A stretch of DNA of 40,957 nt from a bacterium. GTDB taxonomy: Bacteria; Patescibacteriota; Minisyncoccia; Minisyncoccales; JANBVM01. Where the stretch lies: contig DAOUYT010000002.1 in NCBI GenBank assembly GCA_030665965.1, positions 1-40,957 of the forward strand, written 5' to 3'. Below the pieces are notes generated by a model. The model ran no database searches, was not told the origin of the DNA, and saw nothing but the letters and a program-made list of their open reading frames with translations. Position numbers and translations under genes: made by a program. This document shows, in pieces, positions 9,276 through 40,957 of this stretch (positions within the stretch are counted from its first letter, which is position 1; each line of letters begins with the position of its first letter).

Positions 9276-9486
9276 AGTTCAGGGACTACCCGATAAAAGG
9301 AAAAAGATAATTGTTTGGGTGGTGTTGATAATCACAGCTGTTTTTCTTTTTAAATTATATGTTCAAAACATGCAAGAGAAAGTTAGAAACATTGAAGGAG
9401 AAAAGATTAAACAAGAGCTTCAAATCCCAAAGCTGCAGGAAGAGCTTAAGGGTTTGCTGCAGTTTGAAATCCCGGAAATAAAATGA
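9259..9486 (+). CDS. Small single-pass membrane protein, function unknown
   Basis: A 75-residue protein with a Lys-rich start, one hydrophobic segment (about residues 19-36, [18 protein letters not shown]) and a charged, coiled-coil-like tail. I do not recognise a family. It overlaps the pseudouridine synthase gene by 17 bases and gyrA by four (ATGA), so the three genes are translationally coupled. The tight coupling supports it being real. Confidence 0.65.
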
Positions 9487-12400
9487 AAAAAAGAGAAAAA
9501 AAAGTCAACAAAGAAGTCACTAAGGTAGAATCAAGAGAGATTACTCAAGAGATGAAGGAATCATACATTGATTATGCCATGTCAGTGATTATTTCCCGGG
9601 CTCTGCCTGATGTCAGGGATGGATTAAAACCTGTCCAGAGGAGGATTTTATATACCATGTTTGAAGACGGGTTACGGCATGATGCAAGGTCTAGAAAATC
9701 AGCCACTGTTGTTGGGGGTTGTTTGGGCAGGTATCACCCTCACGGTGACCAGGCAGTATACGGGGCGGCAATAAGAATGGCTCAAGATTTTTCCCTGAGA
9801 TATCCTTTGATTCAAGGTCAGGGAAACATGGGTTCAATCGATGACCCAGGAGAATTTGCAGCCATGAGATATTGTATTGCTGGTGATTCCATGGTAGTGA
9901 CCAATCGTTGTTTGGAAAGAATTGATGAAATTTCTGACAAAGAAGATATTTCTTTAAATGTTTTGTCTTTTGCTCAAAAAATAAACTCAGCATCTAAGTG
10001 GTTTGATTCAGGTATTCATCCTGTGTTAGAAGTGAAGACATTCAGAGGTTATAAATTAAAAGGAACAAATAATCATCCAATCTTAACTCTTCAAAAAGAT
10101 ACTGAGGGCAAACCCATATTTAAATGGAAATTATTTAAAGACATTAAAAAAGGAGATTTCGCAGTTATTGATAGAAACAATAAAGCTTTATGGCATTCAA
10201 AGGAAGTAAGTCTCAAACAGTATTATCCTCAAATAAAGAACAGACGCATTGTAATCCATAAGCTACCTTTAAGAATGAACCCAGACTTAGCTTTTTTAAT
10301 GGGTGCAGTTTTATCTGAAGGTTATGTTTCACACAAAAAATCAAAAGCAAAATCTGTTGGTTTTGTTAATACAGATAAAGAATTCATAAGTGCTTTCAAA
10401 AAGAGTTTTAAAAAAATATTTCCTGATTGTAGATTACATGAATTTGAAAGAAGACCTTCAGGTTATGGAAAACTAAAATATACTGCTTTGGAGATTCATT
10501 CTTATCATGTCGTTGAATTTTTGGAAAATTTAGGATTAAAAAATAGTCCTGCATCTAAAAAACAAATTCCTGAAACCATCTTTCACTCAAGTAAAAAATC
10601 AATAGCTGCTTTTCTGAAAGGACTTTTTGAAGGAGATGGATCTATTTATCTTTGTAAATACCGCAATAAAGATACAAAACAAAAATCAATAGAAATAGTC
10701 TATACTTCTTGTAGTAAGAAATTGCTTGAACAGTTACAAATCATATTTTTAAGATTTGGCATAGATTCGTTTTTAAGACCCGAAAGAACAAGAACAACAT
10801 TAAGATTATTCATTCGTGGACACAGCAATTTTAGTTTGTTTAAAAAACAAATTGGTTTTCTCTCAAAACAAAAGAAACAAAGATTAGAGGAATTTTCTAA
10901 AATTAATTCCGATTACAGAATAATGTCTAAGACTGATTATATTCCGTATTTAGCTCAGTATATAAGGGAAAAGTATCAGGGATTAGACATAAAGCGAGCA
11001 GATAAGGTTTGGCTTAAAACCCATAATTTAGATAGATATCCAAAGCTGAGAAAATATTATAATCGTCTGGAACAAATACTAGACCAATTCGATTTAGAGC
11101 TTGTTAAGAATTTCTTAAAAAGCCATTATTTATTTGAGCAGATTGTTTCTATAAAGCAACAAGGAGGGGAACGAGTTTATTCTTTAAGAGTAGATAGTCT
11201 ATGTCATTCTTTTATTTCTAATGGATTTATTAGTCACAACACAGAGATGCGGCTTTCAAAACAAGGCGAAGAAACATTAAAGGATATTAGAAAAGACACT
11301 GTTGATTTTATTGATAATTATGATGGGACACGAAAAGAACCTGTTGTCTTGCCATCTCCCCTTCCCCAGCTTTTATTAAACGGCACCTTGGGAATTGCAG
11401 TGGGAATGGCAACAAACATTCCTCCCAATAATCTGAATGAAATCTGCGATGCTTTAATTTACCTTATCGACCATCCAAAGGCTGACACAGAGGATTTGTT
11501 TAAATTTGTTCAGGGTCCGGATTTCCCAACAGGTGGTTTTATTTATAACAAAAAAGAAATAATTGAAGCCTATTCTCAAGGCAAGGGTCCCATCTTGGTA
11601 AGGGGTAAAACAGAGATAGTTGAAGACAAGAAAGAAAGGCAGCAAATCTTAATTACTGAAATTCCATTTCAGGTTAATAAATCATCCCTGCTTGAAAAAT
11701 TTGCCAGATTGGTTTCAGAAAAGAGACTCAAAGGAATAAGGGATATCAGAGATGAATCAGATAAAGACGGAATGAGGATTGTAATAGATTTACAAAAAGG
11801 GGCAATAGCCAGAAGGGTATTGAACAGGCTTTTTAAATTTACTGATTTACAAAGAGCTTTTCATATGAATATGGTGGCTTTAGTGGATGGAATTCAACCC
11901 AGGATTTTAAACTTTGTTGAGATCTTAAATTATTTTATCTTACACCGAAAAAAAGTTATTTTGAGGAGGGTGAGATATGAATTGAAAAAAGCAAAAGAAA
12001 GGGCTCATATCCTGGCAGGTTTGAACAAATGTTTGTCAAAGATAGATATGGTCATAAAGACAATTAAAAAATCAGCAAACAGGGAGGATGCCAGGAAGAA
12101 TTTAATGAAGCAATTTAAGCTTACAGAGATTCAGGCCAATGCTATTTTAGATACCAGGTTGGCTACCCTGGCCCGTCTGGAAAGAAAAAAGATTGAAGAT
12201 GAGTTAAAAGATTTAAGGGCTAAGATTAAGGAATTAACAGCTATTTTAAAGAGTCCTCAGAGAATAAAACAGATAATCAAAAAAGAACTGAATATGCTGA
12301 AGCAAATCTTTGGAGACGAAAGAAGAACAAAGGTTTTTAATCAGAAGGTAGGGGAAATATCTGAAGAGGATTTAATCCCAAAAGAAGAAACAATTATTAC

Positions 12401-13331
12401 CCTGACCCAGGGAGGATACATTAAAAGAATAAATCCCAAAACCTACAGGATTCAGAGGAGGGGAGGAAAAGGAATTATGGGAATGAAAACAGTGGGTGAG
12501 GATATTGTGGAGCATTTCTTGATAGCCAATACCCATGACAATCTCTTGTTTTTTACTGATTCGGGAAAGGTTTTTAAAGTACCTGTTTATGAGATTCCCG
12601 AAGGAGCAAGAACAGCTAAGGGCAGGGGCTTACTCAACTTCCTGGAAATCTCTTCTGAGGAAAAGGTTTTGTCTTTAATACCTTTGGGTAAAAAAGCTGA
12701 AATGGTTGAAACGAAATATTTAGTAATGGTGACTAAGAAAGGTATAATTAAAAAAACCGCCCTGGAGGATTTCAAAAACATCAGGCGTTCAGGATTAATT
12801 GCCATTTCTTTGAAAAAAGGAGATTTATTGAAAAAGGTGGGTAAAACCACAGGTCAAAATGAAATAATCTTGGTAACCAAGAAAGGACAGTCCATCAGGT
12901 TTAAAGAAAAAGACATCAGGTCCATGGGTCGTTCAGCCGCAGGAGTGAAGGGAATCAGATTGAGAAAAGGAGATGAGGTAGTGGGAATGGATATAGTAAG
13001 ATTAAAAACCAAGAAAGAGTTAAACAACAAACAATATTTACTGGTGGTAAGTGAGAAAGGTTATGGAAAAAGGACGGATTTAAAAGAGTATGGCTTGCAG
13101 AAAAGAGGAGGGGTGGGGGTTAAAACAGCAAGGGTGAGCCCAAAAATAGGAAACCTGGTTGCCTCTAAGGTTTTGACAGGTCAGGAAGATGATTTGATTG
13201 TCATTTCTCAGCATGCTCAGGTAATCAGGATAAAGATTGGTTCCATTTCAAAGATAAGCAGGGCAACCCAGGGAGTCAGGATTATGAGGCTGGGTGAGGG
13301 AGATAGGGTTGTTTCAGCAGCTTTTGTTTAA
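9483..13331 (+). CDS. gyrA: DNA gyrase subunit A with in-frame intein
   Basis: A 1282-residue precursor: 826 residues of GyrA plus a 456-residue intein. The extein has the N-terminal [21 protein letters not shown] and GRYHPHGD regions and the catalytic tyrosine Tyr130 in AAMRY, which passes DNA strands through the enzyme. The C-terminal beta-pinwheel contains QRRGGKG, the GyrA box that separates GyrA from ParC. The intein starts immediately after Tyr130, so the enzyme is inactive until splicing. The start overlaps the upstream small gene by four bases. No gyrB is in the window. Confidence 0.96.
9873..11240 (+). mobile_element. GyrA intein with LAGLIDADG homing endonuclease
   Basis: Residues 131-586 of the precursor. 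It begins with Cys131 (CIAGDS, block A), has a block B TNNH (195-198), and ends [17 protein letters not shown] (blocks F and G) before extein Thr587, so all splicing residues are present. The endonuclease region has two LAGLIDADG helices, [10 protein letters not shown] (271-280) and [10 protein letters not shown] (378-387). Their acidic residues Glu279 and Asp385 are intact, so homing activity is plausible. The insertion site, directly after the active-site tyrosine, is the one used by mycobacterial GyrA inteins. Confidence 0.95.
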
Positions 13332-34215: not shown

Positions 34216-34287
34216 GAACATGGCAGGCCATAACCTTCCATAACCTTGATTTTTACTTGGTCTAAGTTTAAAATAAAAAAAGAATTT

Positions 34288-35151
34288 ATGCTAAGAATAT
34301 TTAATATCTCAGAATTTGGAGATTACTCTTTTAATGCGGTAGAGTTTATCAGTTTAAAGTATAATCTTAGAAAAGTTGTTCAATTGGATTTACGTTCTGA
34401 ACGTAGATTTTTGGATTTACAAAAAATAGTTAAAAAATTGGGTTGGGCAGTTGTAAAGTCTAATTTTAAATTTGATTTAGAAGAAAGAAAAAAAGGAAAT
34501 TTTAAACGTATAGACATTAATGATAAAAGAAAAGGAGAGTTCCGTATTTATATTTTTAATCCTAAGAGATTGAGATTTAAAATACCCAATGAACCAAAAG
34601 AATTAGCCAGATTAATGGGTTATTCCTCTTGTTGTATTGATTCATATATGGAGCGTATGAAGGCAAACAAAAACATATTTGGATGTATGAATATTACCAA
34701 AGATTCAAGTTTTTCTTTCCTGATTAACCCTTTTGCAAAATTAGTATCTAATGCTTATTTAATAAATCACTTCCCTTGTTCTCTTAATTGTAAGAAAAGT
34801 TTAAAATTAGCAAAAGCAATATCGAAAGTAATTCAGTCAGATTATCCACACTTTTATAAAAAAATATATCAATATTGCCATTTTCCTGTTTTAGTGTTCC
34901 CTAATTCCAGTGCTAATTATGATATGGAAGAAGAAGTTCCTTTTTTGTTGTTAATGGAGAAATCAAAGGAAGAGCAAAGTTATAAAATCTTAAACAACAC
35001 ATTACACGGTGATAATAATTTATCTAAGAATTTTAAGAATGCAGATACAATTGTAGTATCTCGGAAAAACATAAAGGTTTTTAGGAATAATATCTTAAAG
35101 AGTCAAATTAATAGAAGCGCCGTAGAATCCTATTTTCTCATTCCTTATTAA
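34288..35151 (+). CDS. DUF483-like Cys-rich protein of unknown function
   Basis: A 287-residue protein. The recognisable core is ELARLMGYSSCCIDSYMERM, followed by SNAYLINHFPCSLNCKKSLKLAKAI. The GYxxCC and PCxxxC motifs recall DUF483-type proteins, which have no known function; the Cys residues could bind metal. I choose the ATG at 34288; a TTG at 34246 would add 14 residues. Codon use is more AT-rich than in the pilus genes, which suggests a boundary between core and accessory DNA. It lies upstream of the HxsD/HxsB genes on the same strand but is separated by a hairpin and a promoter. Confidence 0.5.
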   Translation: MLRIFNISEFGDYSFNAVEFISLKYNLRKVVQLDLRSERRFLDLQKIVKKLGWAVVKSNFKFDLEERKKGNFKRIDINDKRKGEFRIYIFNPKRLRFKIPNEPKELARLMGYSSCCIDSYMERMKANKNIFGCMNITKDSSFSFLINPFAKLVSNAYLINHFPCSLNCKKSLKLAKAISKVIQSDYPHFYKKIYQYCHFPVLVFPNSSANYDMEEEVPFLLLMEKSKEEQSYKILNNTLHGDNNLSKNFKNADTIVVSRKNIKVFRNNILKSQINRSAVESYFLIPY

Positions 35152-37497: not shown

Positions 37498-37558
37498 GAG
37501 ATGAATGGTGGAACCAAGAATAGCCTGGACTGAAGAAATGCTATTTTATTGAAATCTA

Positions 37559-37567
37559 TGGTATAAT
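37559..37567 (+). promoter_or_regulatory. Extended -10 promoter of the HxsA-like gene
   Basis: TGGTATAAT (TATAAT at 37562-37567) lies 30 bases before the ATG at 37598, so the substrate gene can be expressed apart from its maturase. Confidence 0.55.
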
Positions 37568-37597
37568 AATATAATAATATTAAAATCATATAAAAAT

Positions 37598-39052
37598 ATG
37601 TTAATAAAAAAACTACCATCTATAAAAAAGAATATTGAAGCATTTCTCACAAGCGAGGAAGGAAAGATAAGCAAAAAGAGTGCTTTGGAATTAGGTATGG
37701 GGGTGGCTATGTTAGGGACGATGCTGACCCAAACAGCTTCAGCCGTCCACAAGAGCTTTTCTCAAGCTGGCTCTCCCTCCTCTCATGCCAGTCATCTCTC
37801 GAAAGGATCAGGTGGTATGGCTGCTGTGCATTCGTCTGGTGGACACACTTCCCATATTTCCCATAGTTCTCATAGCTCTCATAGTTCTCATACCTCTCAT
37901 AGTTCCCACAGTTCCCATGGTTCCCATGGTTCCCATAGTTCCCATGGTTCCCATGGTTCCCACAGCTCCCATAGTTCCCACGGTTCCCACGGTTCCCACA
38001 GCTCCCATGTCTCCCATGCTAGTTGTGGTGGTGGTTGTCCATTTGTTTTAGTTTGGAACGGTAAAAGGTTTATTATTGATAACAACATCTTACCTGACTC
38101 CGAAAATATATTAAGGAAAAATACTGTTGTGGAGGAATTATACAAATTAGAAGTAGTACCCAAATCCAAAAACAAAAAGTATCTTTTACAGGTAATGGAG
38201 TTTGAAAAAGAACATTCTTACTTTCATGGATTTGAGCTTATTAAAATTGTCCATTCAAAAGAACTGAGCATTGGCATTATCAATAAGAAAATAGTTGCTT
38301 TCAAAAACCTTATCTTACCCTCTTTGATTAAAGACAAAAAAGGCAAAGACTGGACAAAGCAATTATCTGCTTTAGATGATAAAGCATTCTTTAATGGAGA
38401 AAAAGATGATGTATTAAATATCAAATTTGGCAATATCCAAAGTTTAAAGAACTGCCATCTGGTTTTTAGAGCCAGTCTTAGGGCAGGCTATCCCAGGATT
38501 GCCAAGATAGGGCAAAGATTAGAAAGAGCTGTTTCTGAAAACAAACTGATTGATTCCTTAAAAAAGATAGCAGCAGCTTCCTTGGCAGCTGCCAAGATAA
38601 TGGAATCTGACACTGCTTCTGCAGAAATTGTTAAATCCATTAATCTCTCTGTTGTATATATCGGGGAGAATAAAGAGAAATTAGTTAACATCATTCATCC
38701 TAGAGAACAATTCTCTGTGGGTTTGGTTAATATTTTCCCACACATAAAGAGGGGACAGAAGTCTTTATCTTTAACATTAGAATGGACTGCTCCTCACAAT
38801 TTAAGCTTTATTGGCTTAGCAGATGTTGATTCATTAACGAGTCCCCATATTAAGCAAGAGATTGTTAAACTATCTAATCTAAGACATTCAGAAGATAAGG
38901 ATATTAATAAAAAGCATTTAAAGGATGGAAAAGTAGAATTAATTCCTGGTAAATATCTTGAATTAGAGTTTCCTGCAAAAGAAGAAGAGGTTAAATCTAA
39001 TCAAAAAACTTCCCTTGTCCTTAAATCTAAAGGATACTATACACCTCTTTAA
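37598..39052 (+). CDS. hxsA: HxsA-like His-Xaa-Ser repeat protein with large C-terminal domain
   Basis: A 484-residue protein, probably the substrate of the HxsB-like enzyme. Residues 1-35 form a charged leader (FLTSEEGKISKKSALELG); a hydrophobic segment (about 32-46) ends in TASA-VH, a possible signal peptidase site. Residues 83-140 are a strict HxS repeat: 20 His, each exactly three residues apart, with Ser before each His and Ser, Gly, Thr, Ile or Val in the variable place. Then comes CGGGCPFVLVWNGKRFIIDNN and a roughly 340-residue, beta-rich, non-repetitive domain with no family I can name. Known HxsA proteins are, to my knowledge, much shorter. Modification of the repeats, possibly on a surface protein, is inferred. 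Confidence 0.75.
   Translation: MLIKKLPSIKKNIEAFLTSEEGKISKKSALELGMGVAMLGTMLTQTASAVHKSFSQAGSPSSHASHLSKGSGGMAAVHSSGGHTSHISHSSHSSHSSHTSHSSHSSHGSHGSHSSHGSHGSHSSHSSHGSHGSHSSHVSHASCGGGCPFVLVWNGKRFIIDNNILPDSENILRKNTVVEELYKLEVVPKSKNKKYLLQVMEFEKEHSYFHGFELIKIVHSKELSIGIINKKIVAFKNLILPSLIKDKKGKDWTKQLSALDDKAFFNGEKDDVLNIKFGNIQSLKNCHLVFRASLRAGYPRIAKIGQRLERAVSENKLIDSLKKIAAASLAAAKIMESDTASAEIVKSINLSVVYIGENKEKLVNIIHPREQFSVGLVNIFPHIKRGQKSLSLTLEWTAPHNLSFIGLADVDSLTSPHIKQEIVKLSNLRHSEDKDINKKHLKDGKVELIPGKYLELEFPAKEEEVKSNQKTSLVLKSKGYYTPL
37844..38017 (+). repeat. 9-bp tandem repeat encoding His-Xaa-Ser
   Basis: Nineteen 9-base units, mostly TCCCATAGT and TCCCATGGT variants, in perfect codon phase. The unit sequence varies mainly at the third base and in the Xaa codon. 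It is a coding repeat, not a CRISPR. Confidence 0.92.
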
Positions 39053-39150: not shown

Positions 39151-39401
39151 ATGAAAAGATTGATTCATATTAACCTTACTTATTATTGTAATAGAAGCTG
39201 TGGTTACTGTTTTGCCAAGGGTTTTTTAGAAAAATCATTAATGAATTACAATGGGAAGTAAATTTGTTTCCCCAGTGCAAGGATTGTGTTTTTAAAAAGA
39301 ATAAACAATGCCAAGCGGGTTGCTTGAATCGTAAACTTCTTCAGGTTAAGGATGCTGTCAAATTAACAGACAGGAATTTAAAACCGCCAAGCATACATTA
39401 A
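39151..39401 (+). pseudogene. Internally deleted radical SAM/SPASM gene remnant
   Basis: The frame from ATG 39151 reads MKRLIHINLTYYCNRSCGYC, a clear radical SAM start with CxxxCxxC, but stops at 39261 after 36 codons. In another frame the next bases (from about 39245 to the stop at 39401) read WEVNLFPQCKDCVFKKNKQC and then QAGCLNRKLLQ, which looks like the Cys-rich end of a SPASM domain. The middle 250-300 residues of the enzyme are missing. It is best explained as a decayed second maturase gene. It lies downstream of the HxsA-like gene, where an HxsC-type partner could once have been. Confidence 0.7.
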
Positions 39402-40468: not shown

Positions 40469-40957
40469 ATGACAATGAGACGAGTTGATTTAAAAGTGGG
40501 CTTTCAATGTAACAATCGTTGTAGATTCTGTGTTCAGGGTAATAAAAGAGAGGCGTGTCCCGATAAATCCACAGAAGAGGTAATGGCAATCTTAAAAAAA
40601 GAAGTTAAAGACCATGAAGGTATTGTTTTTACAGGAGGGGAACCCACTATTAGAAAAGAACTTATAGAGTGGGTGAAATATGCCAGGGACTTGGGCTATA
40701 AAACAATTCAGATTCAAACCAATGGAAGAATATTTGCTTATAAGAGTTTTTGCGAAAAAATGATTAAAGCTGGTGCTAATGAATTTTCACCAGCTCTTCA
40801 CGGTTCCACGGCTGAAATCCACGATTATTTAACCCGGGTGCCAGGAAGTTTTAACCAAACTATTCAAGGAATTAAAAATCTAAAGGATTTAGGGCAGTAT
40901 ATCTTAAGCAACACAGTAATTACTAAACCAAATTATAAGGATTTGCCAAATTTAGCT
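40469..40957 (+). CDS. Radical SAM protein, 3' end beyond the window
   Basis: An open frame of 163 codons running off the right edge. CNNRCRFC (Cys14, Cys18, Cys21) is the iron-sulfur motif, followed by VQGNKR, FTGGEPTIRKEL (GGE motif), IQTNGR and SPALHGSTAEIHD. The short CxxxCxxC-VQG type start differs from the HxsB-like protein, and from HxsC as I recall it. The C-terminal domain is unseen, so class and target cannot be assigned. Its position in the Hxs region suggests a second maturase. Confidence 0.85.
   Translation, partial: MTMRRVDLKVGFQCNNRCRFCVQGNKREACPDKSTEEVMAILKKEVKDHEGIVFTGGEPTIRKELIEWVKYARDLGYKTIQIQTNGRIFAYKSFCEKMIKAGANEFSPALHGSTAEIHDYLTRVPGSFNQTIQGIKNLKDLGQYILSNTVITKPNYKDLPNLA

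Follow-up and report, generated by a model that had tools for sequence, protein, structure and literature searches.

Organization of the locus

The window analysed here is a stretch of 40,957 nucleotides from the genome (G000; 470 kb in 33 contigs) of a Minisyncoccales bacterium. As none of the searches gave a match past position 40,957, we treat it as a complete contig. An open reading frame on its forward strand, 37598-39052, encodes a protein of 484 aa that consists of a leader, a tract of H-x-S triplets, a CGGGC motif and a C-terminal domain (CTD), and the surrounding genes belong in large part to a His-Xaa-Ser (Hxs) system (Table 1). Of the components that mark such a system, HxsB, HxsD and a protein with tandem HxS repeats are found at the locus.

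Table 1. Features of the Hxs locus in the window, and leader peptidase genes of related loci
Feature	Position	Strand	Basis or remark
DUF483-containing protein	34246..35151	+	PF04467 32.0 bits, cut-off 25; homologue in G438, the closest relative
HxsD, His-Xaa-Ser system protein, 159 aa	35320..35799	+	NCBIfam TIGR03976 60.5 bits, cut-off 50
Second HxsD-like protein, 68 aa	35806..36012	+	NCBIfam NF038315 69.2 bits, cut-off 41
HxsB radical SAM/SPASM maturase, 486 aa	36037..37497	+	TIGR03978 494.1 bits, cut-off 370; Pfam Radical_SAM, SPASM
HxsA-type leader, residues 1-49	37598..37744	+	Motif alignment, hydrophobicity; cleavage site judged by eye
HxS tract, residues 77-142	37826..38023	+	Repeat finding, triplet counts
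CGGGC hinge, residues 143-147 (C143-GGG-C147)	38024..38038	+	Second Cys is the start of the CPF motif
CTD, residues 147-484 and stop, 338 aa, without repeats	38036..39052	+	Relatives, AlphaFold2, fold search
Accessory radical SAM gene remnant	39160..39359	+	tblastn with intact G438 copy, 80% and 59% identity
mem210, conserved companion, 212 aa, N-terminal hydrophobic segment	39683..40321	+	Homologues in the G438 (two) and G475 loci
HxsC4-like radical SAM protein, cut by contig end	40469..40957	+	81% identity to intact G438 copy
A24 leader peptidase	L047:3-797		
A24 leader peptidase	L102:5238-6395		
A24 leader peptidase	L103:2356-3513		
A24 leader peptidase	L105:6854-7846		

The radical SAM remnant downstream of the 484-residue protein retains the N-terminal 25 aa and the C-terminal 46 aa with the middle deleted, and the same gene is intact in G438 (L045:5963-6913) and G475. 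The protein truncated by the contig end has HxsC4 as its best NCBIfam match (130 bits, cut-off 500; HxsC 103, cut-off 267.9), and its intact G438 relative is also under both cut-offs (HxsC 106.2 bits; HxsC4 176.6 of 500). Between HxsB and HxsA, G438, G273 and G558 have an ACGX-like radical SAM gene that this locus lacks (37498-37597) and to which the rest of the window's genome has only weak matches. Because this gene is absent and the other accessory gene is a remnant, the system here may be reduced. The companion protein mem210 has no family match in NCBIfam or Pfam. Elsewhere in the window, at 9483-13331, lies a GyrA-like frame of 1282 aa with an intein-like insertion, the translation being judged by eye.

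Architecture of the 484-residue protein

The leader combines the motif P.[IF]KK[ND]...FL..EEG.[IV].K[KE] with a hydrophobic stretch and an A-x-A signal-peptidase-like site (TASA/V), and P.[IF]KK...FL..EEG.[IV].K is common to all 13 precursors aligned, these being the ones with an intact start. Twenty-four H.S triplets lie ahead of the CPF motif, and in residues 77-143 a Ser stands two positions after every His, of which there are 21. Spaced three residues apart, His recurs 20 times without a break; when residues 51-143 were shuffled 10,000 times, the longest such run never exceeded 10 and averaged 3.0. At the nucleotide level, TRF reports a 9-base unit in 18.8 copies (37849-38017, 83% matches), with mixed codons for both residues (His as CAT 15 times and CAC 6 times; Ser as TCC, AGT, TCT, AGC and TCG).

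All parts named in the preliminary description of this DNA (484 residues with leader, HxS tract, CGGGC and a repeat-free C-terminal part, here of 338 residues) were recovered from the open reading frame, and since proteins joining the tract to the CTD occur in five other genomes, neither chance nor run-on translation accounts for the frame. The two-Cys hinge of that description is present here but does not extend to the family as an invariant feature: across the six proteins only the CPF Cys is invariant, and a second Cys lies within four residues upstream in five of them. An LPxTG motif is absent from all six, and the hydrophobic stretch of the G000 leader is weak (mean 1.08), so that the protein could be released.

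Relatives and distribution

With the window sequence as sole query, the full-length CTD was found in 2 of 379 genomes of the phylum, and a two-row profile run against the 246 genomes of the order recovered the full-length CTD, joined to an HxS tract, in six, the window's own included and the G452 copy having its 5′ end cut by a contig end. The order search gave eight matches, and those in G406 and G569 were dropped as chance, as these ORFs have neither the CPF motif nor HxS and that of G569 is by eye an isoleucyl-tRNA synthetase. In each of the six CTD-bearing genomes, HxS repeats lie ahead of the domain. HxsB exceeds its cut-off in 3 of the 379 phylum genomes and 13 of the 246 order genomes, and the six CTD genomes all fall within these 13. 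Short HxS precursors that end without a CTD are encoded in G348 (two), G602, G558 and G533 (two), and both forms occur in one G475 locus; in G560 the contig ends within the precursor, and no precursor was seen in G592 or G527 within the stretch read.

Family searches placed the CTD in 1 of 24 genomes around G475 and 2 of 6 around the window, adding no new member. Against the species-genome collection, the CTD as a single query found no relative and the two-row alignment found two, in Candidatus Nealsonbacteria and Candidatus Paceibacterota assemblies taken as the same records as G273 and G498. The domain was not found in viral contigs, nor was it matched on plasmids with the window domain or the G677 domain as query. 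Separately, 414 plasmid records out of 72,556 have HxsB-like matches, Klebsiella accounting for 317. Between G000 and G438 the dN/dS of the CTD is 0.19/1.38 (about 0.14, with dS near saturation) and that of HxsB 0.14/1.32; judged from these substitution values, the CTD is under purifying selection.

Several related loci hold further genes. Extra HxsB-like radical SAM genes, with other radical SAM genes packed around them, are present in G475 (L046:4799-6280) and G348 (L032:1-6530), and G533 encodes, beside a second HxsB copy, an HxsA leader followed by Trp-Ser-Asp repeats in place of HxS (L105:11841-12461). Stand-alone A24 leader peptidases (PF01478, over cut-off, lacking the bacterial N-terminal domain) are encoded in 4 of the 13 HxsB loci and might cut the leader after EEG. 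The EEG motif and the A24 genes also raised the idea of a Flp/Tad prepilin leader, which, as five leaders gave no match to a Pfam pilin family, is kept only for the broader reading given below.

Proposed exchange of the C-terminal domain in G475

The leader of HxsA-CTD in G475 has 91% identity with its G602 counterpart and 50-52% with those of G000 and G438, and its HxsB follows the same pattern (78-81% to G602 and G592; 51% to G000 and G438), while its CTD is 60-62% identical to the domains of G000 and G438. The HxsB tree places G475 with G348, G602 and G592 (100/100) and rejects its placement with G000 and G438 (p 1.6e-34). On the CTD tree, the HxsB-like arrangement, in which G000, G438, G273 and G498 group without G475, is rejected (p 0.009), as is the grouping of G000, G438 and G498 without it (p 0.007); the grouping of G000, G438 and G273 without it, one of three tests, was not rejected (p 0.115), and the clade tests on the CTD were picked after the identities were seen. 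Because the leader and HxsB of G475 lie in one clade and its CTD in another, the domain behaves as a swappable module. These alignments and trees are most simply read as a leader and tract that stay with the maturase and a CTD that was exchanged.

Predicted fold of the C-terminal domain

No Pfam family was found in the window CTD, and none scored above chance in the 6 Hxs-type members or the 14 members combined; a PDB sequence search with the CTD gave no credible relative. AlphaFold2 run on 15 CTD sequences gave a model with pLDDT 82.5 and pTM 0.82, superseding one built from only 2 sequences (pLDDT 36). Within the modelled stretch, confidence is low for a helical insert at about residues 175-204. 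The core of the model (about 82-272) matches CBM6/32/36-type modules, the BcsB beta-sandwich and other jelly rolls with Z of 9-11 and an rmsd of about 3 Å over 102-131 residues, the parts outside this core being barely covered by the comparison. As Foldseek gave no PDB match below E 0.001, the fold is assigned by shape only. The Eph receptor ligand-binding domains at the top of the Foldseek list, with E just above 0.001 and low TM-scores, were read as generic jelly roll, and a viral fold library gave only low TM-scores, several of them to tail or lectin-type proteins.

We describe the CTD as having a predicted carbohydrate-binding-module-like beta-sandwich core. By predicted shape it resembles CBM6, CBM32, CBM36 and the BcsB beta-sandwich, but it differs from them in showing no sequence match and in having extra N- and C-terminal strands and the helical insert. 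A jelly-roll shape alone shows no ligand. The preliminary description had called the domain large and unknown; it is large, conserved and outside Pfam, though not wholly unknown, given the binding-like prediction and the family's presence in proteins that lack HxS. The structure prediction and structural search proposed there gave a predicted binding-like fold and no sign of a known enzyme, and none of the six CTD-bearing proteins that the Hxs-type profile found lacks the tract. As a result, neither of the two findings that would speak against a modified stalk, an enzymatic domain or orthologues lacking the tract, was encountered.

The C-terminal domain outside Hxs loci

A class-wide CTD profile search gave a match in 10 of 237 genomes, and partial matches in G357, G363 and G365 were left out of all alignments. 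One group of proteins (G643, G802, G748, G732, G676 and G736, with G815 added by a later search) is homologous to the Hxs-type CTD over its whole length (hhalign 99.9%, E 2.2e-35, 329 columns for the first six members), while a second (G677 and G205) consists of longer ORFs and is more distant (hhalign 97.4%, E 9.5e-12). Of the seven loci of the first group, three have YcaO and SagB-type genes beside the CTD gene and six have TPR genes there. These YcaO/SagB-linked proteins (G643, G802 and G748) resemble the window protein in a CTD homologous over its full length, but they have a hydrophobic N-terminal segment instead of the HxsA leader and no HxS tract, and their loci carry YcaO and SagB-type genes where the window locus has HxsB and HxsD.

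The two settings meet in G498, where the HxsA-CTD gene adjoins YcaO, SagB and TPR genes. In G643 and G498 alike, SagB exceeds its cut-off and YcaO falls below the TOMM cut-off of 219.25 (203.7 and 59.1, respectively), with the YcaO of G498 over the Pfam YcaO cut-off. YcaO, SagB-type, CTD and TPR genes occur together at L065:4230-9737, L066:1454-8666, L069:3987-10716 and L047:4820-9909. No obvious small substrate peptide was noticed in these loci, and the CTD protein itself may be the substrate there.

A proposed surface-held modified stalk and its alternatives

The protein is probably a secreted, radical-SAM-modified His/Ser stalk that is held at the surface by a glycan-binding-like domain. 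This proposal draws on the architecture, gene neighbours, conservation, predicted fold and separability of the CTD described above, and, for the modification and its chemistry, export, surface retention and ligand, on what we infer from the Hxs family and the domain type. The protein would be the substrate of the Hxs system of its host, a Paceibacterota-type ultra-small bacterium. HxsD and HxsB would bind the leader (residues 1-49), and HxsB, probably together with the HxsC4-like radical SAM enzyme, would modify the HxS tract in the cytoplasm, after which the hydrophobic leader segment would export the whole protein. Outside the cell, the CTD would retain the modified stalk at the surface via a cell-envelope glycan or a partner cell, doing the job that a peptidoglycan-binding domain probably does in classic HxsA. 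The preliminary description had likewise seen an HxsA-like substrate joined to a large domain as a surface protein rather than a released peptide; the fusion and the adjoining HxsB and HxsD genes are confirmed and the design suggests retention, modification and surface location being expectations.

Alternatively, cleavage at the CGGGC hinge or close to it could set the tract free as a modified peptide, leaving the CTD as a discarded carrier, chaperone or immunity-like module that aids maturation or export. The short precursors in the same order, the G475 locus that encodes both forms and the A24 peptidase genes at some HxsB loci are all in keeping with release. We nonetheless consider it unlikely, as CTD homologues are found in proteins that have no HxS tract, very long ORFs included, the fold prediction points to a binding domain, one of the six proteins lacks the pair of hinge Cys, and an unsystematic look at the loci noticed no dedicated hinge protease.

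A broader reading treats the CTD as a general display module of these ultra-small bacteria, whose surface proteins would be given chemical modifications of exchangeable kinds: in Hxs loci, radical SAM enzymes would act on HxS or Trp-Ser-Asp repeats, and in YcaO/SagB loci the chemistry would be of the azole type, with both kits side by side in G498. The EEG-motif leader might then be cut by a dedicated A24 (prepilin-type) peptidase, and the modified stalk, if this were true, would serve attachment to host cells. We regard this as speculative and rather improbable. To our knowledge, neither the way in which ultra-small Patescibacteria attach to their hosts nor the function of Hxs systems has been settled.

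It is more improbable again that the tract is an unmodified, metal-binding His-rich stalk, with HxsB and HxsD acting on other substrates. A His at every third residue is a plausible binder of Zn, Ni or Cu, and Cys enters the tract too in relatives; against this, the tract-CTD protein always occurs with HxsB (six of six), the leader type of G475 tracks the HxsB clade as that of a maturase substrate should, and the Trp-Ser-Asp precursor of G533, with the same leader beside its own HxsB, is not explained by metal binding through His. Gene decay, in which a relic locus would keep its substrate while the modification machinery fails, would fit the radical SAM remnant and the lack of a good match to the radical SAM gene that adjoins HxsB in several relatives, but is very improbable given intact HxsB, HxsD and CTD and their low dN/dS against G438 (HxsB and CTD).

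For the surface-held stalk that we favour, the surface would be the workplace of the modified repeat, because leader and repeat follow the maturase while the binding module swaps, being peptidoglycan-binding in classic HxsA and lectin-like here. The CTD also offers a single recombinant domain with a testable ligand.

Comparison with known HxsA proteins

Our literature search on Hxs chemistry gave passing mentions only: a passage of one paper has the His-Xaa-Ser motif of Haft and Basu putatively relying on HxsB and HxsC for maturation (PMC9062424), and a passage of another mentions Hxs in passing (PMC8446631). Among described types, HxsA3 and HxsA4 (NF038309 and NF038313) share a leader and HxS tract with the window protein, which scores 48.3 with the first (cut-off 65) and 47.2 with the second (cut-off 55); the relatives in G475 and G498 exceed the HxsA4 cut-off, with 79.0 and 91.3, respectively. 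These models span 81 and 93 positions, and the CTD lies outside their coverage. Nostoc HxsA2 (96 aa) has its tract at its end and no C-terminal domain of the PG_binding_1 type.

The closest parallel in plan is classic HxsA (TIGR03979). The TIGR03979 model matches that of Aeromonas salmonicida plasmid 4 (WP_011899282) above its cut-off and from end to end; this protein ends in PG_binding_1, and its gene, like that of the window protein, adjoins hxsD and hxsB. An Adhaeribacter HxS protein beside hxsD, hxsB and hxsC has the same layout with a score of 65.8, below the cut-off of 121.65. Classic HxsA and the window protein share an N-terminal signal-like segment, an HxS tract and a C-terminal folded module of binding or binding-like type. 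They differ in that the window protein has a much longer tract and a different leader, gives no TIGR03979 match at E up to 1, and carries, instead of a PG_binding_1 module of about 54 aa, a different domain of 338 aa with a predicted beta-sandwich core and with neither PG_binding_1 nor any other Pfam match. The embedding of the repeat to which the preliminary description drew attention is not new, and the architecture is less odd than supposed there, because the order of signal, HxS and PG_binding_1 in classic HxsA already ends in a peptidoglycan-binding domain. The window protein is a variant of that known plan, in which the wall-binding module is replaced by a lectin-like one.
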